From: an uncultured Clostridia bacterium | GTDB taxonomy: Bacteria; Bacillota; Clostridia; Christensenellales; Borkfalkiaceae | NCBI GenBank assembly: GCA_947572415.1 | Contig: CANPBT010000016.1 | Span: 1 to 34,624, forward strand | DNA length: 34,624 nucleotides | Reading direction: 5' to 3' | Shown here: positions 7,524 to 23,152 of the stretch, in pieces | Position numbering within the stretch: position 1 is the first letter of the stretch | How the letters are laid out: every line of letters starts with the position of its first letter | Notes under the pieces: generated by a model | Database searches by the model: none | What the model saw: the letters and a program-made list of their open reading frames with translations, nothing else | What the model was told of the DNA's origin: nothing | Position numbers and translations under genes: made by a program

Positions 7524-7600
7524 TGAGGTGTAGCGCAGTTTGGTAGCGCGTCTGGTTAGGGACCAGAAGGTCGTGGGTTCAAGTCCCGTCACCTCAACCA
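7524..7600 (+). tRNA. tRNA-Pro, anticodon AGG
   Basis: A full cloverleaf can be drawn. The acceptor stem is TGAGGTG/CACCTCA, the D-stem GCGC/GCGC, the anticodon stem TCTGG/CCAGA around loop TTAGGGA, the T-arm GTGGG-TTCAAGT-CCCGT, discriminator A and an encoded CCA. The loop places AGG at positions 34-36, reading proline CCU. Bacterial tRNA-Pro species usually carry TGG, GGG or CGG, so A34 is unusual and would be a candidate for inosine modification. The 3' end (7577 onward) is the attachment site of the integrated element, and the gene stays intact after integration. Confidence 0.93.
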
Positions 7601-7601
7601 A
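7577..7601. repeat. attL, 25-bp tRNA 3'-end repeat
   Basis: Bases 7577-7601, from GTTCAAGTCCCG to CTCAACCAA, recur exactly at 23128-23152. They cover the T-loop through CCA of tRNA-Pro plus one base, a typical tyrosine-integrase target. Confidence 0.93.
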
Positions 7602-7723: not shown

Positions 7724-8938
7724 CTAATATTTCAGTTTTTGCCCTTCTTTTAAAAGAAACTCATCGGATAAATCCGTATAAGTATTCCCGAGCGCGCCGA
7801 GCGAATGTCCTACAAATTCGTTCCTTGCAACGTCCGCAACACCGCATTCCTGACATCTCGTATAGAAAGTCGTCCTTAAATCGTAAAGCCTGTTCTTCGG
7901 TAAAATCTTATGAAACTTTTCTCTTATTCTGTTTTGTACGTAGAAATGAAATTCAGTTACTCCGTTTAAGTACGGCTTTAACATCGGCGTTATTGGAATT
8001 TTCTTGTACTCCACTTTACCGTTTTTGCGCTTGCTATTAATAGCTACTATGAAATCACCGTCGATTTTTGCACTATAATATTCATTAGGGCGCATTCCCG
8101 TATATAAACCAACTGCAAACATAAGTTGATAAGGCGTTCCCGCTGTTTCGGAAAGCAACAGTTTTTCCTGTTCCTTTGTTAAAGCAGCACCGTGCTTTCT
8201 TTCGTATACCTGATGAAATACCAAGTCCATGGGGTTTGAAGAAACTATTCCGTGTCTTATAGCCATTTTAAAAATGTTGTTCAATAGACAGAATATTTCA
8301 GACGCAGTTTTATTCTTATCTTCTGCGTTAAGCCTGTCTATAAGATTCTGGCACATAAAAGTTGTAATACTTTTTAATTGTCTGCTTTCAAACTCCGGTT
8401 TTAAGTGTAAATTATACCTACCGAGAGTTATCTTGTATGTACTTGCTACTACCTTACGCTTATAGTAAGTTTCAAAGAAATATGTTGCAAATTCGTGAAA
8501 GGTTGTAGGCACTGTTATTACAGAGCTTTTCTTTCCTGCTTTCTCTACTTCATTTAATTTTGCTATAAACTTATCCTTTGCTTTTTGTATCTCATTAGCA
8601 GACACACAAACATTGTAGCCGTTTCTTCTATATCTTATTTCATAATTCCAAGTGTTCTTGCCGCTCTTTCTTTTACGGATACGGGCTGTACAGCCCTGTG
8701 TTCTGAATTCCTTTCTGAATGTTTTGGGCATAATTGAAATCTCCTTTTCTGAAAACTTCAAAGCCTTTTCATTAGTTAATTGTTCTTCACTTTCTTCACT
8801 TACCGAAGTGAGCGACTTTATTTTATCCAACGTTATACTGTCCGCCGCAGCTTTCAATATTGTCCTTGCCAATTCGTCGTTGCCTTCGGGTAGTGTTTTT
8901 AAAGTCCTTAAAATGTTATCTAATTCTTGATTTGTCAA
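7724..8938 (-). CDS. int: Tyrosine-type site-specific integrase
   Basis: Recombinase expected to insert and excise the element at tRNA-Pro. In the 404-residue frame an arm-DNA-binding-like segment (about 80-135, RIRKRKSGKNTWNYEIRYRR) and a SAM-like core-binding domain (about 143-245) precede the catalytic domain. Arg283 is in LYTGMRPNE, Arg355 in YDLRTTF (Tyr replaces the usual His of HxxR), His378 in GHSLG and the Tyr387 nucleophile in NTYTD. The frame opens at a TTG (8938) with only AAGGA close upstream. An internal ATG at 8731 (MPKTFRKEF) has a much better AAGGAG, ten bases away, and would give 335 residues. Both forms could be made. Confidence 0.93.
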   Translation of the reverse strand: MTNQELDNILRTLKTLPEGNDELARTILKAAADSITLDKIKSLTSVSEESEEQLTNEKALKFSEKEISIMPKTFRKEFRTQGCTARIRKRKSGKNTWNYEIRYRRNGYNVCVSANEIQKAKDKFIAKLNEVEKAGKKSSVITVPTTFHEFATYFFETYYKRKVVASTYKITLGRYNLHLKPEFESRQLKSITTFMCQNLIDRLNAEDKNKTASEIFCLLNNIFKMAIRHGIVSSNPMDLVFHQVYERKHGAALTKEQEKLLLSETAGTPYQLMFAVGLYTGMRPNEYYSAKIDGDFIVAINSKRKNGKVEYKKIPITPMLKPYLNGVTEFHFYVQNRIREKFHKILPKNRLYDLRTTFYTRCQECGVADVARNEFVGHSLGALGNTYTDLSDEFLLKEGQKLKY

Positions 8939-9326: not shown

Positions 9327-10664
9327 CTATTTGCCCCAATCCCACTTGGAACTTTTAGGTTTTATTTGTTCCTGTGGACGATTTTCTTTTTCGTATTCTT
9401 CTTGTATTTCCTCCTCTATTTCTTTTAGACGGTTACGGTAGTTTTGCGTTTCGGGCGAAAATAATTCTGCTACCGATGAAAACAGTCCATCCATAATACC
9501 GCGCACTTTTATTGATGAAATTGCGAGCCTGCGTTTAAGGTATTTATCGTTTGTCTTATATTTTCTGCGTGGATTTCTCTTATACGTTTCATTCTGTATC
9601 TCACGCACCTTTTTGAGAACGATATTGCCCAATCGCCTGCGGTAGTCCCACTCCAACTTTTCTATGGTGTGGATTGTCTTAATTCCTTGCACATCTGTAA
9701 AGTTTGGAATATTCTCCGTGTACCACCTTTCCTTTCCCAAACGGTCTTTATAGTAGTTGCCCATTATGCCTTTTAACTTCCGTTCCTTATCCCGAAGTTC
9801 TTTCCTAAAAGCGTGGTCTGCTTCACTTGTTCTTTCGTCCATATCAATGAGCCATTCTGCCACAAGGTCTATCTTTGCATGATACGGTTTCATTTCTTTA
9901 CTTCCGTACCATAACGGTTTATCTTGGGGTAGTTCGTCTGCAAGTTCCTTTAACCACTTACGCACTAAATCGTTGATATGTGCAAGGTCGTACTCGTTGC
10001 TTGTTCTGGTGAGTTCCTCTACAACTTTCTGTCTTTTCTTTGCGAGGTCGTCATCAATGGTATATGCGTTCAAGCGTTCAGTCATTTTATCTATAACGTT
10101 GAGAGGTATCTTGCCTTTCTTGCGATAGATATATCCCGCCGCACGTTGGTTTTTTACATTCGGCTCTTTCTCCCAAAAGACGTAATGAATATGCAAGTGT
10201 TCTGGTCTGTCTAAATGTAATGCACACATCAAGTCCATATTGGTGGAATTGAACCCCGCGTCCTTGAAAAATTGTCCGAAGGTCTGCTTTATGAGCGCGA
10301 TACACTTTTCTGGGTCATCTATCTTATCTGAGTTTTCTTTATTGAACGATATAAAACCGTGCCATAAATTCTTCTCGCCCGTCTGTGCTCTCCGTTTCAT
10401 TTCCTTAACTTGTTCTTTCGTTAGCATTCCGTATTGGTTGAATACGCCAGTACTCTTTTGCAAGTATTCCAGCATTGTAAACTTCTTTGCTTCTTCACTG
10501 TATATCTTGCCTTCCGTGGTTATGTACTTATAAATATTATCCTCGCCCGACATATCGAAGAAAGCGCGTTCCTTTGCGTGGTTAGATATTTCTTCCGCCG
10601 TTGCGTTTTTCTTTAAGCGATACTGCGTATATCCTATATCAAATATTACCGGTTGTGTTCCTAT
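9327..10664 (-). CDS. mobL: MobL-like relaxase (mobilization protein), non-ATG start
   Basis: Relaxase expected to nick the element at oriT and lead the strand into a recipient. The metal-binding histidine cluster is LHLDRPEHLHIHYVFWEKEP, the hallmark of the Firmicutes MobL/MobP-type relaxases (His113, 119, 121 and 123 counted from the first ATG). Conserved YKYITTEG and LWHGFISFN precede it, and a charged helical C-terminus follows. The first ATG (10553) has no ribosome-binding site and begins mid-domain. The frame continues upstream with typical relaxase sequence (PVIFDIGYTQYRLKK) as far as an ATA at 10664, seven bases after GGAGG. I therefore place the start there (445 residues), or suspect a frameshift from the upstream small ORF. 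No canonical start codon exists in the extension. Confidence 0.85.
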   Translation of the reverse strand: MGTQPVIFDIGYTQYRLKKNATAEEISNHAKERAFFDMSGEDNIYKYITTEGKIYSEEAKKFTMLEYLQKSTGVFNQYGMLTKEQVKEMKRRAQTGEKNLWHGFISFNKENSDKIDDPEKCIALIKQTFGQFFKDAGFNSTNMDLMCALHLDRPEHLHIHYVFWEKEPNVKNQRAAGYIYRKKGKIPLNVIDKMTERLNAYTIDDDLAKKRQKVVEELTRTSNEYDLAHINDLVRKWLKELADELPQDKPLWYGSKEMKPYHAKIDLVAEWLIDMDERTSEADHAFRKELRDKERKLKGIMGNYYKDRLGKERWYTENIPNFTDVQGIKTIHTIEKLEWDYRRRLGNIVLKKVREIQNETYKRNPRRKYKTNDKYLKRRLAISSIKVRGIMDGLFSSVAELFSPETQNYRNRLKEIEEEIQEEYEKENRPQEQIKPKSSKWDWGK

Positions 10665-10794
10665 TTTTTATCCTCCACTTGTTTATTTGTTCTTGTGATT
10701 TTGCCGTCGCAGACTGCAAAATCTTAGCCTGCTTCCGTTTTTCGCATTTTAGGTTACATTTTGCTTCCCGTTTGGTTGTAGTTTTGCTTACCAA
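10639..10794 (-). CDS. Possible 51-aa basic ORF overlapping the relaxase start
   Basis: TTG at 10794, with AGGTGG just before it, opens a frame immediately after the upstream gene's stop. It encodes a Lys/Gln-rich peptide (MVSKTTTKREAKCN...) ending at TGA 10639-10641, inside the relaxase N-terminal region. The relaxase frame is +1 relative to it across an A6 run at about 10665-10670. It could be a genuine small protein, a coupling ORF, or the true N-terminus joined by slippage. No family is recognised. Confidence 0.3.
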   Translation of the reverse strand: MVSKTTTKREAKCNLKCEKRKQAKILQSATAKSQEQINKWRIKNRNTTGNI

Positions 10795-11501
10795 CTTCCA
10801 CCTATTATTTCTTTATTATGCGTTAAAATCTGATACAGGCTTTTACTATCTTTGTACGCAGAGTTAGGTAGTTCATAATCTAACATAGTCCAATCTATTC
10901 CTTCGGTTAAGTGCATACTTGATTTATAAATATCGTTCTTTACTTGCGGATTGTTTTTAAGAAAACCATCCATACCGATTGACGATAAGCCTTCAGGTTG
11001 AATTGCATTTACTTGCTCGGTTGTTACAGGTATTCGCTCTGCTTTACCGCCTTTCTTTCCGATACTACTACGTATTTTTGAAAGCTCTAACTTACGCTTT
11101 GCAAGTGTGTAATACAAATCTACAGGTGAAGATAACTTACTCGGTTCTACGTTATTAAGCGCATAGTTATATATCGCTTTTATATACTGACCTGCTTGCT
11201 TATCTTCCATTAGTTCCACCGCTTCATAGAAATTGCGGTAGAAATTAAAGTGTTTCATTTGCCTAATTGCTCGTACAGTTTTGCCGTTCAACTGAGCGTG
11301 CTTGTCCACGTCTAAGTAGTCTATTATGTTTCCCCATAAAAAGATAAGCTTTTTATCCGTTAGTTCTTTCTGTTCTCCGTCCTCGAACATATACTCGCAA
11401 ATACGTCGCAGTAACTTTCCGCGTTCTTCATCGTTCAATACGTCCATTAGCTCAGCGTACAAATCATAAAATGTAAATTGTTTTAATAGTGTTTTTTCCA
11501 T
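10788..11501 (-). CDS. DUF6291-like protein, two tandem domains
   Basis: I recognise the repeated pattern FxFYxxxxEhhxxhxxxxxxxhhxxIxxYxh, found once as QFTFYDLYAELMDVL and again as HFNFYRNFYEAVELM, each about 60 residues. This matches DUF6291, small helical domains common in Firmicutes phages and integrative elements and often placed near replication genes; the function is unknown. A KKGGKAER linker and a shorter tail follow. The ATG at 11501 (237 residues) has GGAGG four bases upstream. An in-frame GTG at 11567, with GAGGTGAT ten bases upstream, would add 22 residues. It precedes the relaxase and probably shares its transcript. Confidence 0.75.
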   Translation of the reverse strand: MEKTLLKQFTFYDLYAELMDVLNDEERGKLLRRICEYMFEDGEQKELTDKKLIFLWGNIIDYLDVDKHAQLNGKTVRAIRQMKHFNFYRNFYEAVELMEDKQAGQYIKAIYNYALNNVEPSKLSSPVDLYYTLAKRKLELSKIRSSIGKKGGKAERIPVTTEQVNAIQPEGLSSIGMDGFLKNNPQVKNDIYKSSMHLTEGIDWTMLDYELPNSAYKDSKSLYQILTHNKEIIGGSW

Positions 11502-11621
11502 TATTCCTCCATCATTTTGTATTTGTTGCAACCGTTTAACGACTGCTTGCAAGTCACTGATTAGCACATAAGCATCACCTCACTTTTCAATTTTTTGGTA
11601 AACTCCCCATACTAACATAGT

Positions 11622-12688: not shown

Positions 12689-13810
12689 TCAATCAATTGT
12701 ACCCATCTGACGAAACTTTTCAAAGTTATTAATGTCTGATTGTGTTATCACGTTGCGAGAACCAGTCAATACGACATTGCAGTCATTTAGAGTAATGTTT
12801 TGCGGAACACCGGCTTTTGAAGCACGCATATAAGCTCTGCCCTTTATTTTATTACAAATCGCAGTTATATCACCGCCGCCGAAGCCTTCCAACGCTTGCG
12901 CAAGTTTTGAAAGTTCAACTTCTTCGTCTATGGGTAAACCTTTAAGAACTTTATTTACAAGAAATTCACGTGCCTCTTGGTCAGAAACACCCACATAAAT
13001 ATGAGTATCAAATCTGCCACCTCGAAGCATAGCTGAATCAAGTGCCCACGGACGGTTAGTGGCCGCTATTAAAAGCAACATTTTATTCGTTTCGCTCTTT
13101 TTAAATCCATCAACTTTGGTTAAAAACGTTGCAACAAAACGAGCCATTTCACCGTCCGCCCCATCCGCACCGTCACCACGCTTGCAGGCAACAGAATCGA
13201 ACTCGTCAAAAAATATTATAGCTCGTTCATTTTTTAATGCCGTTTCAAAAACCTCGTCCAGTTTTTTAGAGCTTTCACCCATCCACTTGGAAATTAAATC
13301 CTGACAGTTCACGACAAAGAACGCCGCGTCCACTTCTCCTGCAATTGCACGCGCTATGTACGTTTTGCCTGTACCGGGAGGGCCGTATAAAAGAATTTTT
13401 GCGCCCGGTTCTATGTGATAAAGCTCGGCAAGTTCTGGATTTTTCAAAGGCTCTAAAACCTTAAAACGTATTTCGTCCTTCACGTCTTCAAGTCCCGCCA
13501 CGTCTGCAAATGTAATATCGCTCTTTTTCTCCGGTTTGATTTCTGTTTTCTTTTCTTCCGAAGGCGCAGAAAGCACTTCCTTAGGCGGATTTTTAACGCA
13601 CTTGTTTTTTACAAATTCCAAAATTTTAACCGCTGTTTTATGATATTCCATACGCACGTCGTATGAAGTTGCACTAACGGAAATCTCGTTTGCAAGCGCA
13701 GCCGCTTTTAAAAAAATGTCTCTTGCAGACAAAATGTCACCGCTGTTATATAAATCTTTTCCTTGCTGATAGAAGCTGTTAAACGCTTCAATTTTCGGTT
13801 GATTGTTCAT
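12689..13810 (-). CDS. Vps4-like AAA ATPase with MIT-like N-terminus
   Basis: 373 residues. Residues about 5-70 are a helical unit (FNSFYQQGKDLYNSGDILSA...) that resembles the MIT domain, the module Vps4 uses to grip ESCRT-III tails. After a Lys/Glu/Pro linker comes one AAA domain: ITFADVAGLEDVKDEI, Walker A GPPGTGKT (143-150), pore loop SKWMGES (174-180), Walker B IIFFDEFD (198-205), sensor-1 Asn252 in AATNRP, arginine fingers Arg263/Arg266 in LRGGRFD, and sensor-2 region GFGGGDI. The C-terminal helix QSDINNFEKFRQMG recalls the Vps4/katanin end helix. The start codon lies 23 bp inside the upstream TIR gene with GAGGAT upstream, so translation is coupled. FtsH or p97-type AAA is the alternative, but there is no protease domain, membrane segment or second AAA domain. 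Confidence 0.88.
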   Translation of the reverse strand: MNNQPKIEAFNSFYQQGKDLYNSGDILSARDIFLKAAALANEISVSATSYDVRMEYHKTAVKILEFVKNKCVKNPPKEVLSAPSEEKKTEIKPEKKSDITFADVAGLEDVKDEIRFKVLEPLKNPELAELYHIEPGAKILLYGPPGTGKTYIARAIAGEVDAAFFVVNCQDLISKWMGESSKKLDEVFETALKNERAIIFFDEFDSVACKRGDGADGADGEMARFVATFLTKVDGFKKSETNKMLLLIAATNRPWALDSAMLRGGRFDTHIYVGVSDQEAREFLVNKVLKGLPIDEEVELSKLAQALEGFGGGDITAICNKIKGRAYMRASKAGVPQNITLNDCNVVLTGSRNVITQSDINNFEKFRQMGTID

Positions 13811-16800
13811 TTTGATAATTATCCTCTATATATCCCCAAATTACTATACAATTAGAATCACACCAATCGCTCATCCATTCACTCGGTTTATTATATATAT
13901 TGCAATTGATAGTTAGCCCGAAGCAATGAGAAAATGCACTACTGCCAATGTACAATACACTAATTGGAATAGTAATACTTGTAAGTCCTATGCATCCATA
14001 AAATGCAAAATCATTAATCTTAGAAGTGTCATCAGATAAAATTACAGACTTTAGCATATAACAGTTACTAAATGCACCAACAGGAATATCTCTTCCACAA
14101 CTAATAATTACATTAGTTAAATTCTTTGGAATAAAATACCCAACATCTGTTTCCCACTTGTTATAGTAATCATAATAATATCTTTGATATACTCGTACAC
14201 CACCAGCATACTCTTTAGTGCCAAATATATACCCAAACAATGCACTACTACCAAATGTAAAACCACTACCAACGAACGGTAATGTTATACTTTCAAGACC
14301 ACTGCATCCACCAATAGCAGCTGTACCAATTGATGTAACATTACTTGGTATATTCAAATTTGACAATTCGTAACAGCCCCAAAAAGCAAATTCCCCTATG
14401 GAGTTTACACTACTTGGAATAACTATGTCTGTTACTCCATTCCAACCACAAAAAGCATAATCATTTATTGCCGTAATATTATCTGGAATAGTAAGTTCAC
14501 CAGAAAAAAGTTTGCCATTTATGTATATATTGTTAGCATAATACATTGGATTAGAATCAATAGAATTAAATGTTATATTACACCAACTTTCTAAATTTCC
14601 TAAATAATAAGTGTCCGTTAGATTTGAACATTCACTAAATAATCTTGATGGCAACCCGCTTACAGTACTACCTATATAAATTTGATTAAGATTTGCACAA
14701 TCAGAAAAAACACCTGTTTGCGCAAGATTCGCAGGATTCCATAGTACACAATTTTCTGCATGCCACTCCACAGTATTCAAATTAGAACATTCGTAGAACG
14801 CACCCATACCTATTGAACTTAAATGCTTAGGAATATTAATACTGGTTAAGCCGTTGCAATTAGCAAACGCATAACAACCAATTGTTAAAATATTTTCAGA
14901 AATATTTATACTAATTAATGCACTACACCCATAAAATGCCCCTCCCCCTATAGTATTAACGCTTTCGGGTATAGTTACACTAATTAATGCTCTACACCCA
15001 TAAAATGCATTTTCCCCTATTGTATTAACGCCTTCTGGTATGGTTACATTAATTAAATTGTTACAATTTTGGAATGTATTATCGCCTATGCTTATTACAG
15101 GTTTATTATCAACATACGCTGGTATTTCAACAATTTGATTTGCCCCAACATATTTTTCCAAAGTAATTTCATTCGTACCATAATATTCAAAATCGAACAA
15201 CCATACGGCATACAAATTATAATTATTTTCTGAATTCATAGTATAGCTTGCACCATCGGCATAAATAACCTCGCCGTTTTCATAAGTGGACCAACCAATA
15301 AAATTATAATTATTCTTAGTGAATAAATTACTATTCAAAGGTGCAGTACTATCAGTAGCAATTTTCTGCTGAGGCATTTCACCTTCGCCGCCATTTGCGT
15401 GGAAAGTAATTGTATTCAGATTTGCAGTCCAGTTTGCGGAATACATTTTATTTCCTATACTTCCTTTTTCGATTGTTACGGTTTGTTGGACAGAAGTTAA
15501 CTCCTCACCTGTCCAACCAGCAAAAGTATATCCTGCACGGACAGGTATATTTAGAGTAAATGTTTCCGTTTCTATATTATAAGTTTCAAAATTATCGTTT
15601 TCCGTACCACCATTTAGCTCGAATGTAATAGAATATTCAATAGGCTTCCATACAGCATAAATCGTATAAACACTTTCTGTGCCCATAGTGTAATTCGACT
15701 TATCGCTGTAAATAATTGAACCATTTACAGTGGTACTCCAACCGACAAAGTTATATCCTATACGCTTAAAGTTATTTTCATTTAATGTAACTGATTCGTC
15801 CGTATAAATATTCTGAAAATCCATACTACCGCTCGTTGCACCATTCCCGTCAAAGTACAATGTATTTTCATTAGGTGCCCATACAGCATAAAGTGTATAA
15901 CTTTTATCTGCGCCCATTTTGAATAAATCATTATCGAAATATTCAATAACATTTAAATTAGCGACGGTTGTCCATCCGGCAAAAGTATATCCTTCTTTTT
16001 CATATTCATTTGCAAATAATAACGCCGAATCATCAGTGTAAATTTTTTGGTCCTCCATACTTCCTGAAGTTGCACCGTTGCCATTAAAAATTATTTTGTT
16101 TTCATTGGCAGCATATCGTGCCGTTAATGTTCCGCCATTATTAAAATTCCAAGTTGACAATGATTTACCTGTTCCGTCTGTCAACTTTTCGTCATCACGA
16201 TACCAACCATCGAAAGTATAGCCCGGTTTAACAGGTATAGGAAGTGTAAACGTTTTTTCGTAAATAACATATAGTTCAGTTTGAGAAAGCGTTCCGCCGT
16301 TTGCAGAGAGTCGAATCAACAAGGAAAACTCTACTTGTGCAATGCAGTTATTGTTCCAATTTGTATTCCAAACTGTTGGAACTTCTTCCCTATCGCATAC
16401 AGCTATTAAATTCAAATTTTTACAATTTTCAAAAGCATTTGCTCCCATATATTTTACCGTGTTCGGAATATATATTTCCGTTATACCATCACAGTCAGCA
16501 AATGCTTTATCGTTGATAGTTTGAATGCTCTCAGGAATAATAAATTCGGTAACTTTATCAAAGTTTTTAAATGCACCTGAATTTATTCTAACTACAGATT
16601 CACCTTTATAGGTGGAAGGAATTTCAAAAACTCCTGATGCTGTACTATGATAAAATAATCCACTATCAATAGCATAGCCGCCTTCAACTTTTTCAAATTT
16701 TAACTGATTCTCACTTTTATACCAGTACACTCCACCCGTGATAATTCCGCACAACAAAATTAAAAGACTTAATGCAACACTTGCAATTTTTATACGTCTT

Positions 16801-19511
16801 TTGCGTTTTTGTGCTTTTACTTGTTTAATTTCTTGCTCTTCTAACCACGCCTTTTGCTTATTCTGCAGGTCGATATAGTGTGCCATAGCAGAGCTGTTTG
16901 AAGCCGACGCTAATAATGCATTCTGAAATTCCTGAAATTCAGTTACAACTTCCTTTTGTTTTATAAGTTGTTCGTCCGACTTGCATTTTAATTTTGCCAG
17001 CAAAAGTCCCCAGTAAGCCGTATGGTCATCCGCATTTAAGCCTATACTCATTGCATAATAACGTTCCGCATATTCAAAGACGCCAATAATCATGCAATTT
17101 TGCGCCATTTCGTTTACGTATAGAATAAGTTTGTCGTTGTATTGCTGTGGGATAAATGAAAGCAAAGTTTCAAAGATTGTAAAAATTCTATCCTGAACCG
17201 ACAATTTTTCCTTAACACAATCCAAACTTGCGGTTATTAGCCAGTCAAGAAAGCTTATACGCTTTTCGTCATTTTCGTAAAGCGCAAGTATAGTTTCCAG
17301 CGTTTCAGTATCAGAAAGATTCAAAATACAATCCCGAATTTTTTTATCGGAATCATATTTCAATTCGGCATATAATTTGCCCGCATAATAGCGTATATCG
17401 TCTCCGCCATATTTAATCGCTTTTTCATAACAATGTATTGCAAGTGTAAATTGTTCGCTCTTTCTAGCACTTTTTGCAAACAAATAATAATAATTTGCGT
17501 AAAGTTTTACATCGCCGTTGGAGAGAACAGTTATCACTTTTATAAAAAGCTCTTCTATGCCTTTATCGGGGGTATTTATACATATTTCAGCAATATCTTT
17601 AAGATTTGCTTCTCTTGCTTCAAATCTGTATTTTGAAAATATGCTACACCACGCAAGCGAATCTTTATATAATTTATTTTTAAGACATTTTATTGATTGC
17701 GATGCAAAAGCAAGCAATAAAGCTTCTGCGCCTTGCTCGTCAACATTGTTCAAAACTTTTTCTATAGTACCAAACTCATTATGTTCCTGACAATATAAAA
17801 ATACGCCATCAAGATTTGTAGCTTTATATTTTAGCTGTAAACCTCCGATTTGAGTTTGCAAACTTACAGCGTCATAATCTAAAAGAATTTTATGATATTT
17901 ATCTGCAAGCGAAAAGGCTTTTTGGTTTATGCAATTTTCAAATATCGTATGCAACTTATTGACATAAGCTACTTCATCCTGTTCGTAAACGAGTACCGCA
18001 TCGATAAAATACTGTATATTGGAAATTTCGTTTAACAAAGGTAATGAATTTTGGAAAATAAATTCGCGCAATTCTGATACAGTTTCATTATCGATTGAAT
18101 TTATCTGTTCTAAGAGCTCTTTTGATTCGTCATACCTCTTTTCTGAAAAGAGACGTTTTATTTCTTTACTTAAAGCACTTAGAACTTTTTCGGCATCAGA
18201 TTTTTCGGCGTATGCAAGAACGTCGTTTAAAAGCTGTAAGTTGCGAAAATTGATAACACCGGTTTTGTCGAATTCCGCTATATTTTTACATTTCGCCTGT
18301 GCCAACATTTTACCTAACAGGGCATTCCCGTTTTGCCTGTTGTTCAAAAGAAAGCTATCAAAAGATTTATCGGCATCTGTGAAATTCCCACTTCCCAAAT
18401 AGGCATAAGCTATTTTTATTAATTTTTCCGCATTTGCCGTAAGTTTAGGAACGGAATATGTACCTATTTCACGTTTTGCAATCTTTTCACGCTTAATCGA
18501 TTTAGATGTAGCACCGTTTATCTCAATAACTTCAACAACATCGAGTTTTGCGACTGACAACGAGGTCTTCGCTATACGGTTTTTAATTTCTTTACGCTCG
18601 ATGCGCGGCACAACGGTATGTGCGGCTTTTAAAACTCGTGCGACATAGGAATCCAAATCCTGCAAAAAAGTAAGACTTTCCCTATTAATATTTTGAACGG
18701 AAGGCAATGGTCTTGGAAGTTTTGACGGATTGAAATCTTTGTACACCACTACGATAGAATTTTTTTGTTTTTGTCCCGATTTAATCCGCTTGTAATATCT
18801 TGACCATTCGTTTTTTACCCAAGTCGATTCGATATATTCTACTTTACTGCCATAGATAATCATAACCTGAGCAGTATTAAGTGCATTGAAAATATACGGC
18901 TCGAATTTTTCACCCGTCTTTGATTTAAGCGATTCGCGACTGAAAAATACCCGATAACCAAGAGCAGTTAAATGAGTATAAAGTTCATAAGCATCAATGC
19001 TATCCTGCGTTTGTTTAACGTCGTTTTCAAGCTCGGTTGCTTTATATGAAATAAAAATATCGTAAGGCGGTTCCTTTGAAGCCTTTTCCACCCATTCCTT
19101 ACGAATTTTTTCTATTTTTTCGGCTTGTTCTATGTAATATTTACGGTTTTCAGGCGTGGCTAAATCAAGGGCGCGCTTATAATTTTTATCGTCCTTAACA
19201 CTCTCGTAACTAGTAGCATAACAAGTGGGAATCATTTTACCATCGTAATCTTGCTCATACTTAATACCATATTTTGCAAGTAAAAGTCCCCAATACCCCT
19301 CACTGTTTTCCGGATACTTTCTTACGATATCGCGATATGCTTCCTCGGCATCATCGAATGCGTTAAGCCTTAATTTTTGCGAAGCAGTATAAAGAAGCGT
19401 AACTTCTTCATTAGATAGTTCCTCTTCCTTATACGCTCCACATGCAGGGCATACCCATTTACCGTTCTTATATTCGTAATTTGCGCCGCAAATATTACAT
19501 ATGTTTTTCAT
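13788..19511 (-). CDS. Giant zinc ribbon-TIR-TPR-TM-InlB/LRR receptor-like protein
   Basis: 1907 residues. The order is: zinc ribbon (Cys5, 8, 21, 24); TPR-like helices (30-90); TIR domain (about 149-295) starting YDIFISYK, with Glu235 in WVKNEW as the likely catalytic-site glutamate; a long helical TPR-type region (to about 870); basic KAQKRKRRIK followed by one membrane helix (about 907-930). Beyond it lie a BspA-type LRR block (935-1030), about five InlB B-repeats (GYTFDGWY, GYTFAGWT, GYNFVGWS and others, about 1050-1390) and a long BspA LRR block (about 1400-1890). The positive-inside rule puts the TIR half in the cytoplasm and the repeats outside. TIR domains either cleave NAD+ or act as scaffolds; which applies here is not known. 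The ribosome-binding site is modest (AGGACA). YWGLLLAK occurs twice (73-80 and near 840), showing an internal duplication. Confidence 0.93.
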   Translation of the reverse strand: MKNICNICGANYEYKNGKWVCPACGAYKEEELSNEEVTLLYTASQKLRLNAFDDAEEAYRDIVRKYPENSEGYWGLLLAKYGIKYEQDYDGKMIPTCYATSYESVKDDKNYKRALDLATPENRKYYIEQAEKIEKIRKEWVEKASKEPPYDIFISYKATELENDVKQTQDSIDAYELYTHLTALGYRVFFSRESLKSKTGEKFEPYIFNALNTAQVMIIYGSKVEYIESTWVKNEWSRYYKRIKSGQKQKNSIVVVYKDFNPSKLPRPLPSVQNINRESLTFLQDLDSYVARVLKAAHTVVPRIERKEIKNRIAKTSLSVAKLDVVEVIEINGATSKSIKREKIAKREIGTYSVPKLTANAEKLIKIAYAYLGSGNFTDADKSFDSFLLNNRQNGNALLGKMLAQAKCKNIAEFDKTGVINFRNLQLLNDVLAYAEKSDAEKVLSALSKEIKRLFSEKRYDESKELLEQINSIDNETVSELREFIFQNSLPLLNEISNIQYFIDAVLVYEQDEVAYVNKLHTIFENCINQKAFSLADKYHKILLDYDAVSLQTQIGGLQLKYKATNLDGVFLYCQEHNEFGTIEKVLNNVDEQGAEALLLAFASQSIKCLKNKLYKDSLAWCSIFSKYRFEAREANLKDIAEICINTPDKGIEELFIKVITVLSNGDVKLYANYYYLFAKSARKSEQFTLAIHCYEKAIKYGGDDIRYYAGKLYAELKYDSDKKIRDCILNLSDTETLETILALYENDEKRISFLDWLITASLDCVKEKLSVQDRIFTIFETLLSFIPQQYNDKLILYVNEMAQNCMIIGVFEYAERYYAMSIGLNADDHTAYWGLLLAKLKCKSDEQLIKQKEVVTEFQEFQNALLASASNSSAMAHYIDLQNKQKAWLEEQEIKQVKAQKRKRRIKIASVALSLLILLCGIITGGVYWYKSENQLKFEKVEGGYAIDSGLFYHSTASGVFEIPSTYKGESVVRINSGAFKNFDKVTEFIIPESIQTINDKAFADCDGITEIYIPNTVKYMGANAFENCKNLNLIAVCDREEVPTVWNTNWNNNCIAQVEFSLLIRLSANGGTLSQTELYVIYEKTFTLPIPVKPGYTFDGWYRDDEKLTDGTGKSLSTWNFNNGGTLTARYAANENKIIFNGNGATSGSMEDQKIYTDDSALLFANEYEKEGYTFAGWTTVANLNVIEYFDNDLFKMGADKSYTLYAVWAPNENTLYFDGNGATSGSMDFQNIYTDESVTLNENNFKRIGYNFVGWSTTVNGSIIYSDKSNYTMGTESVYTIYAVWKPIEYSITFELNGGTENDNFETYNIETETFTLNIPVRAGYTFAGWTGEELTSVQQTVTIEKGSIGNKMYSANWTANLNTITFHANGGEGEMPQQKIATDSTAPLNSNLFTKNNYNFIGWSTYENGEVIYADGASYTMNSENNYNLYAVWLFDFEYYGTNEITLEKYVGANQIVEIPAYVDNKPVISIGDNTFQNCNNLINVTIPEGVNTIGENAFYGCRALISVTIPESVNTIGGGAFYGCSALISINISENILTIGCYAFANCNGLTSINIPKHLSSIGMGAFYECSNLNTVEWHAENCVLWNPANLAQTGVFSDCANLNQIYIGSTVSGLPSRLFSECSNLTDTYYLGNLESWCNITFNSIDSNPMYYANNIYINGKLFSGELTIPDNITAINDYAFCGWNGVTDIVIPSSVNSIGEFAFWGCYELSNLNIPSNVTSIGTAAIGGCSGLESITLPFVGSGFTFGSSALFGYIFGTKEYAGGVRVYQRYYYDYYNKWETDVGYFIPKNLTNVIISCGRDIPVGAFSNCYMLKSVILSDDTSKINDFAFYGCIGLTSITIPISVLYIGSSAFSHCFGLTINCNIYNKPSEWMSDWCDSNCIVIWGYIEDNYQNEQSTEN
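14910..15008 (-). repeat. 69-bp tandem LRR-coding repeat
   Basis: A 30-bp block beginning ACTAATTAATGC and ending CATAAAATGC occurs at 14910-14939 and, with a single mismatch, at 14979-15008, a period of exactly 69 bp (23 codons, one LRR). Such near-identical DNA repeats can expand or contract by recombination. Confidence 0.8.
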
Positions 19512-21130: not shown

Positions 21131-22474
21131 TCAATCCTCCGTATAAAGCAATTTTTCCTGATAAAAGTCCAAAACTTCTTTCATATAATCTTTTCGTGAT
21201 TTGTTGTGTGCGAAAAATTTGTCCAATTTCTTTTTGTTTTCTTCCGACCTGTGCCTTATTTTGTTTATAACACGCCACATTACTGTAGCTCTGTAAGCTT
21301 CCTGTGGAGAAAGTCCCGCTCTCATAAATCTAATTAACGGGTGCATTTCTACCGTAATTGGTGTACCGTCACTTTGAAGCTCAATCACTCTCGGCGGTAA
21401 AGGTTTTAAAATACCGTTCTTATCACGTTCCATTAAATAATATCTGTCGTCAGACTTTGCTTGATATACAGCGGTCAAATATTCTGAATAGTTCATATAG
21501 AATTTTTCGTTTCTATGGGGAAGTTTATATTTCGTAATTAAATTCTCTTCTACCTTACTGTAAATCAAACTAGCAAGAAGAACTAAATCATCATTTTCAT
21601 CCGCTTGTTCAAGCAATGTGTGTGCATTGAGTTTTACCTTCTTAATATTGTTAATTTTTGCCTCTTCGCACAGAGGAAGTCGCTCTGTGATTATATCTTC
21701 CAACTCCGCAGAAATATTTGCACCAAAATCATCTAGTTGCTTTTGTAAAATTTGTTTTAATTCAGTAGAAACAATTTCAGAAATCTCCACTTTTAAATCT
21801 TCAATGGATGAAGTACTTTCAGCATTATTGATACGATTTCTGATAATTTCTAAATCATCTTCGTTTACGTGGATTTTTTCAACTGTCAAATCCTTTAACT
21901 TAAACCCTATATCACTAAACGCATTCTCATTCTTCAAAGAGTTAAAAAGCTCATCCCTTATGTTTTCAATCTGAGACGCAATTTCAAACACTGAAATATC
22001 TGTTTTGGCAAAACATTTCCCAAGAACAGCATTTCCTAAATTTCTAATAATGCTAATTGTTCTGTCGCGCACTTTTTCTGTCGTAATATTATTTTCTACG
22101 TTGAAAGCGCTAATTAATTTAGCAATATCGACAATTTCAACGACGTATTTACCATTTGCACCAACCCTGTACGCTTCTTTCAAGCGGTCGTTATTTACTT
22201 GAATATTGCCGAACCCCCATAGCATCGCAGGTAACATCTTTGTATGAACAAAAGCAATTTTACCTCGTTTACCTATATAATCTTTTCCGTATTCACTAAG
22301 TTTTTTTGTCGCGCCCTCATTCATACGAAACGTAACTTTTTCATCAATCAAAATAATCGCCTTAAAGCCATTAGGCACTTTAACAACGGTATTTTTTTCA
22401 ATAATCACATTTTGAGTAAATTGCACAATTACGTTCTCATCTGCAACCGTCGGCTGTAAAATAATTCCTTTCAT
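21131..22474 (-). CDS. SPFH/band-7 domain protein (YdjI-like)
   Basis: 447 residues. An SPFH-type core covers about residues 25-215: VPNGFKAIILIDEKV, then AMLWGFGNIQVNN, GKYVVEIVDIAKLISAF, and the helical repeat with DISVFEIASQIENIRDEL and FKLKDLTVEKIHV. This order matches the YdjI/virion-core-like branch rather than the transmembrane flotillins, since no membrane helix is present. A coiled segment and a separate C-terminal domain of about 180 residues follow, which I do not recognise. SPFH proteins make membrane-associated rings and in B. subtilis a YdjI-type protein is encoded with a PspA-type ESCRT-III relative, which fits the neighbours here. The start overlaps the XRE stop as TAATG. Confidence 0.78.
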   Translation of the reverse strand: MKGIILQPTVADENVIVQFTQNVIIEKNTVVKVPNGFKAIILIDEKVTFRMNEGATKKLSEYGKDYIGKRGKIAFVHTKMLPAMLWGFGNIQVNNDRLKEAYRVGANGKYVVEIVDIAKLISAFNVENNITTEKVRDRTISIIRNLGNAVLGKCFAKTDISVFEIASQIENIRDELFNSLKNENAFSDIGFKLKDLTVEKIHVNEDDLEIIRNRINNAESTSSIEDLKVEISEIVSTELKQILQKQLDDFGANISAELEDIITERLPLCEEAKINNIKKVKLNAHTLLEQADENDDLVLLASLIYSKVEENLITKYKLPHRNEKFYMNYSEYLTAVYQAKSDDRYYLMERDKNGILKPLPPRVIELQSDGTPITVEMHPLIRFMRAGLSPQEAYRATVMWRVINKIRHRSEENKKKLDKFFAHNKSRKDYMKEVLDFYQEKLLYTED

Positions 22475-22830
22475 TAGTTGTTACCACCTTTTGAATTTAC
22501 CAATTTGCAAATCTCGTCTAACGTGAAAGCATCTATATCATCCTGCGCCAAAGCCATAATAACTCGACGTTTCTTCTCACCGAGTTCTGTTAAATCTATT
22601 TTTACCCTATCCTTAGTTGCAATTAACGCTTCCTTTAAATTGGATTGATCGCGTTCGGACAAAGGATATGAAGAAACTACTTTTTCAAACAAATCATTTG
22701 GAACATCTCTCCTTCCATTTTCAATAGCATTCAAATAAGGTACAGAAATCCCTAACTTATCTGCCATTTGCTTCGCACTGTCTCCTGAATTGATACGAAT
22801 TATTCTTAATGCTTTTCCGAATTCAGTCAT
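22474..22830 (-). CDS. XRE-family transcriptional regulator of the cargo operon
   Basis: 118 residues. A Cro/CI helix-turn-helix covers about residues 4-60 (MADKLGISVPYLNAIENGRR is the recognition part). A helical C-terminal region (60-115) with KRRVIMALAQDDIDAFTLDE is probably for dimerization. It is the first gene of the seven-gene operon, with AGGTAGG upstream and a one-base overlap with the SPFH gene. Two copies of a near-palindrome sit at the operon promoter, so autoregulation is likely. A repressor role is inferred. Confidence 0.88.
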   Translation of the reverse strand: MTEFGKALRIIRINSGDSAKQMADKLGISVPYLNAIENGRRDVPNDLFEKVVSSYPLSERDQSNLKEALIATKDRVKIDLTELGEKKRRVIMALAQDDIDAFTLDEICKLVNSKGGNN

Positions 22831-23127: not shown

Positions 23128-23152
23128 GTTCAAGTCCCGTCACCTCAACCAA
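23128..23152. repeat. attR, second copy of the 25-bp tRNA 3' end
   Basis: Identical to 7577-7601; the rest of the tRNA is absent, so this is the displaced half-site at the right end of the element. Confidence 0.93.

Follow-up and report, generated by a model that had tools for sequence, protein, structure and literature searches.

The window analysed here, a stretch of 34,624 nucleotides from an uncultured Clostridia bacterium, encodes a protein of 1907 residues that carries a TIR domain before a hydrophobic segment and leucine-rich repeats (LRRs) after it. The question raised by this locus is whether the protein spans the membrane, with a TIR domain inside the cell and LRRs outside, and what such a protein would do. 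A sequence-only reading of the DNA had described it as a Toll-like receptor in reverse order. The features on which the answer depends are listed in Table 1.

The open reading frame reported in that reading (13788-19511) is confirmed and lies on the minus strand; it contains no internal stops, and the plus strand over the same interval is full of them. A purine-rich stretch is found upstream of the frame, and the gene starts 21 bp past the preceding gene and overlaps the next one by 23 bp. The domains proposed for the two halves are recovered as well. The zinc ribbon of the N-terminal half is C5/C8/C21/C24, with all four cysteines invariant in aligned relatives, and it is followed by a Pfam TIR_2 match at residues 152-270 (E 1.1e-9, 39.3 bits against a cut-off of 28) and by Pfam TPR matches, where TPR-like helices had been proposed. 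Five LRR_5 (BspA) stretches (E 4.7e-82) and five Flg_new/InlB repeats (E 3.6e-38) make up the described series of BspA LRRs, InlB B-repeats and further LRRs after the helix. No NB-ARC domain, which is located between TIR and LRR in plant TNL proteins, is found in the protein with Pfam.

Table 1. Location of the operon, the mobile element and the protein regions in the window
Feature	Position	Strand	Basis
tRNA-Pro(AGG)	7524-7600		
att repeat at 3' end of tRNA-Pro(AGG)	7577..7601	+	exact 25-bp direct repeat
Tyrosine recombinase (integrase)	7724..8938	-	
MobL relaxase	9327..10553	-	MobL E 4e-16
DUF6291 protein of mobile element	10788..11567	-	Pfam
Zinc ribbon and trypsin-like protease; His, Asp and Ser motifs; no transmembrane helix	11892..12680	-	Trypsin_2 E 4.3e-23, hydropathy
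AAA ATPase, Vps4/CdvC/Cdc48-like family, 373 aa, Walker A and B present	12689..13810	-	Pfam, family matches
TIR-TPR-TM-LRR/InlB protein, 1907 aa	13788..19511	-	open reading frame, Pfam, hydropathy
Predicted extracytoplasmic region, about residues 932-1907: BspA LRR, InlB B-repeats, BspA LRR	13788..16718	-	Pfam LRR_5 and Flg_new; exported proteins elsewhere in this genome have like repeats
Predicted transmembrane helix, residues 907-925, basic stretch before	16737..16793	-	hydropathy; conserved in orthologues
TIR domain, residues 152-270, E235 in WVKNEW	18702..19058	-	Pfam TIR_2, AF2 and Foldseek, E235 invariance
ESCRT-III-like (Snf7-related) helical protein, 194 aa	19533..20117	-	family Snf7 matches, AF2 and Foldseek
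Coiled-coil partner, 336 aa	20119..21129	-	
SPFH/Band-7 protein	21131..22474	-	Band_7_1 E 6e-9, 36.3 bits against a cut-off of 24
XRE-family HTH regulator, first gene of the operon	22474..22830	-	HTH_3 E 1.1e-8
att repeat, other end of element	23128..23152	+	exact 25-bp direct repeat

The only strong hydrophobic segment of the protein is residues 907-925, at the position where a single membrane helix had been proposed (about 907-930). It is the best hydrophobic 19-mer, with a mean Kyte-Doolittle value of 2.38 (the runner-up, at 1.74, is within the LRRs), and KRKRR stands directly before it; its N-side carries 10 K/R against 4 D/E, and its C-side 3 against 4. No N-terminal signal peptide is seen in the hydropathy profile of the protein, which begins with the zinc ribbon. 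A search for the same architecture in other genomes, as had been suggested, finds the order TIR-TPR-one helix-LRR/InlB in eight further loci of the same operon type, i.e. L125, L126 (=G610), L127 (=G515), L128, L129 (=G016), L130 (=G085), L131 (=G264) and L135, with L125 and L126 near-identical (98% in the ESCRT-III-like protein). This recurrence is more than chance. Each of the eight orthologues has the helix at the TIR/LRR junction, with a varying helix sequence, 6-10 K/R among the 15 residues that precede it and 0-3 behind it (flanks read by eye for L125, L128 and L135 and counted for the rest). Single-helix TIR-LRR proteins also occur outside this operon type (L044, L049, L051, L123).

Other proteins of the same genome with LRR or InlB repeats carry export signals. 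An export-type N-terminal hydrophobic segment is present in 11 of the 13 checked, several of which have a lipobox-like Cys after the segment, and a twelfth (2411 aa) has a signal peptide as judged by eye. TIR inside and LRRs outside is the best-supported topology on sequence grounds, because the single helix is conserved, the flanks follow the positive-inside rule, and most of the other LRR/InlB proteins have export signals; the architecture and topology of the earlier reading are well supported in this way. A fully cytoplasmic protein with the hydrophobic segment buried in its fold is very unlikely: soluble TIR-LRR fusions lacking a transmembrane helix are encoded in related operons (L104, L113, L114, L117 and, in one listing, L128), but the hydrophobicity of the segment and its basic flank are conserved in all nine orthologues despite sequence change.

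The TIR domain is of the NAD+-cleaving type by structural resemblance. An AF2 model of residues 1-310 (16 alignment rows, pLDDT 87.5) has a TIR fold, and the PDB structures closest to it in Foldseek are C. elegans TIR-1, SARM1 and SPARTA TIR-APAZ, with a probability of 1.00 to TIR domains. E235 of the WVKNEW motif occupies the second Glu-type position, that of the catalytic Glu in WxxxE, and does not vary in either TIR alignment. The presence of E235 does not prove NADase activity, because a Glu at the catalytic position occurs in >70% of TIRs, including TIRs without this activity (PMC7075850). The window protein shares the TIR fold and the Glu position with the NAD+-cleaving TIRs of SARM1/TIR-1, SPARTA TIR-APAZ, SpbK and Thoeris ThsB, whereas its zinc ribbon/TPR/helix/LRR architecture differs and it has no Argonaute or SIR2/SLOG partner. 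The NCBIfam ThcB4 model scores 21.8 bits against a cut-off of 220, and the operon holds no Thoeris partner, which places the protein outside Thoeris. The phrase “Toll receptor in reverse” fairly describes the parts and their order, as animal Toll and Toll-like receptors also have a TIR domain inside, one transmembrane helix and an LRR ectodomain, but it holds as an analogy only. Unlike Toll-like receptors, the window protein has the opposite chain order and no signal peptide, combines BspA-type LRRs with InlB repeats, has a TIR model nearest the domains of SARM1/TIR-1 and SPARTA, and is encoded in an ESCRT-like operon.

This operon comprises seven genes in the order XRE, SPFH, 336-aa coiled coil, 194-aa helical protein, TIR-LRR, AAA, and zinc ribbon with trypsin, with intergenic gaps of -23 to +21 bp; many relatives have a second coiled-coil protein of about 200 aa (ccB) at the place of the 336-aa partner. 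The sequence-only reading had overlooked this operon and the mobile element that carries it. Among 36 loci fetched by the ESCRT-III-like gene alone, an AAA gene is found in 34, SPFH in 31, a TIR of this family in 23 and trypsin in 14, leaving 13 of the ESCRT-like loci without a TIR of this family. Together these loci span 605 kb and hold 27 TIR genes, when about 0.14 would be predicted from an estimated whole-genome density of about 0.24 per Mb (an enrichment estimated at about 200-fold). PADLOC leaves the TIR protein unmatched and matches no known defence system as a whole; it relates the AAA protein to IetA (148 bits). The operon thus resembles IetAS defence (AAA and protease) in its IetA-related AAA with an adjoining protease gene, and differs from it in the trypsin fold and in the TIR, ESCRT-III-like and SPFH genes. 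Two ESCRT-like loci have other contents: L118 encodes a different TIR-like protein (13390-16713, 1107 aa) after the ESCRT-like genes, with the studied TIR family absent from the locus, and in L119 (2909-16633) the neighbouring genes differ, among them a pair of AAA genes and several short ORFs, and the studied TIR family is not detected.

The 194-aa protein and the AAA protein are assigned as ESCRT-III-like and Vps4-like through their families. Pfam Snf7 matches 15 of the 45 members of the 194-aa family (best E 2.8e-8), and the window's own member shows no direct Snf7 match among those listed. In a Snf7 search of 30 whole genomes, these loci account for six of the seven best matches, two of which exceed the Pfam curated cut-off, and 14 control genomes give no match over the cut-off. 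A further Snf7-like match (G264:C10:2677-3060, E 0.0019) lies away from the known locus of its genome. The AF2 model of the window protein (12 rows) has a pLDDT of 66.6 overall and about 80 in its hairpin, and predicts helices at residues 7-48, 52-103, 112-141, 152-170 and 182-193, i.e. the long helical hairpin followed by shorter helices expected of ESCRT-III. Its top Foldseek matches are mostly from the ESCRT-III superfamily (CHMP2A-CHMP3 with a probability of 0.99, Vipp1, Asgard ESCRT-IIIB with 0.96, CHMP1B/IST1 and CdvB), with weak E-values (best 0.036). A PDB profile search with the family gives a weak CHMP2A match (E 3.6), so the assignment rests on Snf7, AF2 and Foldseek. In the 373-aa protein the AAA cassette is clear (Pfam, E 2.6e-39). 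Its alignment with the CdvC model runs the whole length and gives 182 bits (cut-off 650), and PAN/CDC48 models score higher. Vps4_C is matched in 21 of 29 members of the AAA family (best 1.1e-7) and MIT in the N-termini of 3 of 29 (best 1.8e-6); the window AAA has neither among the matches listed.

Vps4 and ESCRT-III together have been reported absent in bacteria (Makarova et al., PMC10936438), and Ravi et al. (2024) describe some bacterial Snf7/PspA proteins that occur with AAA proteins (PMC11237479). Like archaeal and eukaryotic ESCRT-III-Vps4 (Cdv) systems, the operon has a small Snf7-related protein gene adjoining an AAA gene whose relatives show MIT and Vps4_C, and SPFH is a neighbour as in some archaeal ESCRT loci (PMC10936438); in contrast to them, it is found in Clostridia and includes TIR and trypsin genes. 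The PspA/Snf7-AAA-Band-7 operons of bacteria likewise combine an ESCRT-III superfamily protein, an AAA protein and Band-7, but no TIR-domain effectors are described for them in the accessible part of that study, where “CesT/Tir” denotes a chaperone fold and not a TIR domain (Ravi et al., 2024; PMC11237479). No description of a TIR protein beside ESCRT-like genes in bacteria was found in the literature searched, which was mostly open-access with few preprints.

A 15.6-kb mobilizable element, integrated in tRNA-Pro, carries the operon as cargo. This element has an integrase, a relaxase and the att repeats, which were found by k-mer search, and in the congener G259 the left flank, the tRNA and the right flank are contiguous, as an empty site. 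Across the order of the window genome, the 194-aa family, searched for with an alignment of seven rows, occurs in 44 of 396 genomes and 22 of 142 genera, in a patchy distribution, and in a phylum-wide sample of 399 genomes it is found only in the window genome and in none of the 398 others. A scan of IMG/VR yields two TIR relatives, neither of them in the LRR form. A contig labelled as the Elusimicrobiaceae MAG Tb.RUG.145 carries the operon with 85% identity in the ESCRT-III-like protein (L128 1366-14112), by either horizontal transfer or misbinning.

Residence on a mobile element bears on what the operon is for. It might be an ESCRT-like machine for membrane maintenance or repair, in which the TIR protein serves as scaffold or regulator without killing. 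The ESCRT-III-like, AAA and SPFH partners would suit this role, PspA/Band-7/AAA systems handle envelope stress (PMC11237479), and the catalytic Glu alone is no proof of an NADase. Carriage as mobile cargo, the patchy distribution, a TIR model closest to NAD+-cleaving TIRs and the protease partner nevertheless make repair an improbable role.

Surface sensing coupled to a TIR response, as the sequence-only reading suggested, is plausible. The reading preferred here, to which we give a probability of about 0.5, is that a mobile ESCRT-like operon supplies this protein as its TIR component, set across the membrane, with envelope-triggered abortive-type defence as the most likely role. The architecture and the co-inheritance of the TIR protein with the ESCRT-III-like protein, the Vps4-like AAA ATPase, the SPFH protein and the soluble trypsin-like protease are read directly from the DNA; for the steps from binding to NAD+ loss, we infer the following. 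The ectodomain would bind something at the cell surface, e.g. phage, another microbe, a host glycan or damaged envelope, and clustering would gather the TIR domains beneath the membrane, where they might cleave NAD+, leading to cell arrest or death, or produce a signal. The SPFH and ESCRT-III-like proteins may form a membrane platform or polymer that the AAA ATPase remodels or resets, and the protease may process a component. The trigger would be external or membrane-derived, and NAD+ loss the output. It is possible, though more doubtful, that the operon gives bacteria an innate-immune system with an ESCRT-III/Vps4-type machine at its core, in which the external LRRs of transmembrane TIR receptors report envelope attack while the ESCRT-III-like polymer, AAA and SPFH control TIR clustering and NAD+ cleavage.

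The combination of a one-helix TIR/LRR membrane protein with ESCRT relatives on mobile DNA appears not to have been described before, and it suggests that bacteria have an immune or stress switch based at the membrane. It presents a bacterial protein whose predicted layout across the membrane resembles that of a Toll receptor, within a defined operon of a gut-type Clostridia bacterium, and ties TIR signalling to ESCRT-like machinery in bacteria, where the Vps4 and ESCRT-III pair had been reported absent (PMC10936438). If the immune reading is true, the protein would be the first TIR receptor from bacteria whose LRR ectodomain is exported, and the operon would hold the first bacterial pair of the Snf7-Vps4 type linked with immunity, as far as the literature searched shows. 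Two questions become testable: do bacteria use LRR receptors to detect attack outside the membrane, and does ESCRT-type machinery serve immunity beyond archaea and eukaryotes?

Comparison between operons indicates which parts of the system are constant. Identity of the orthologues to the window protein is 58-80% in the TIR domain, 28-47% in the TPR region and 31-47% in the ectodomain, which comprises about 840-1330 aa in complete copies and is kept in nine loci. A transmembrane helix is present in 16 of the 27 TIR proteins of the 36 loci, so that tethering to the membrane is usual but not invariable for the TIR system. Other operons join the TIR domain to several transmembrane helices instead of LRRs, or to none. 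The TIR domain beside the ESCRT-like machine looks like the constant part and the LRR ectodomain like one variant. The ectodomain seems exchangeable, since relatives that keep the TIR domain often have multi-helix segments where the LRRs would be, or are soluble. Sensing by LRRs would therefore not be general to the operon type, many of whose TIR proteins have several transmembrane helices at the C-terminus or none. The main rival to external sensing, itself tentative, takes up this point: the trigger could be internal, with the ESCRT-III/AAA/SPFH machine, the TPR region or the protease sensing membrane or cytoplasmic events, the LRR/InlB region acting as wall anchor or spacer, and the TIR effector still tethered to the membrane. 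The loss or replacement of the LRR half in many operons that retain TIR, AAA, ESCRT-III-like and SPFH genes is what an internal trigger would allow, whereas the retention in nine loci of a large, diverged ectodomain with repeats typical of binding proteins argues against it. The same repeats might instead belong to a colonisation adhesin with a cytoplasmic signalling TIR, and a HupY/LrrG adhesin model does match over the LRRs (96 bits, far below its cut-off of 1250); however, none of the operon partners is a gene for adhesion or secretion and many relatives have no LRRs, so there is little chance that the protein is an adhesin. One apparent natural split into TIR-TPR and TM-LRR genes (L050 4962-10742) was left uncounted, as its frames abut like those of one frameshifted gene. 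The segment of the window protein just past the helix is resembled by a 159-aa lipoprotein-like ORF in L153 (2807-3286; G000 C10:25818-26156).
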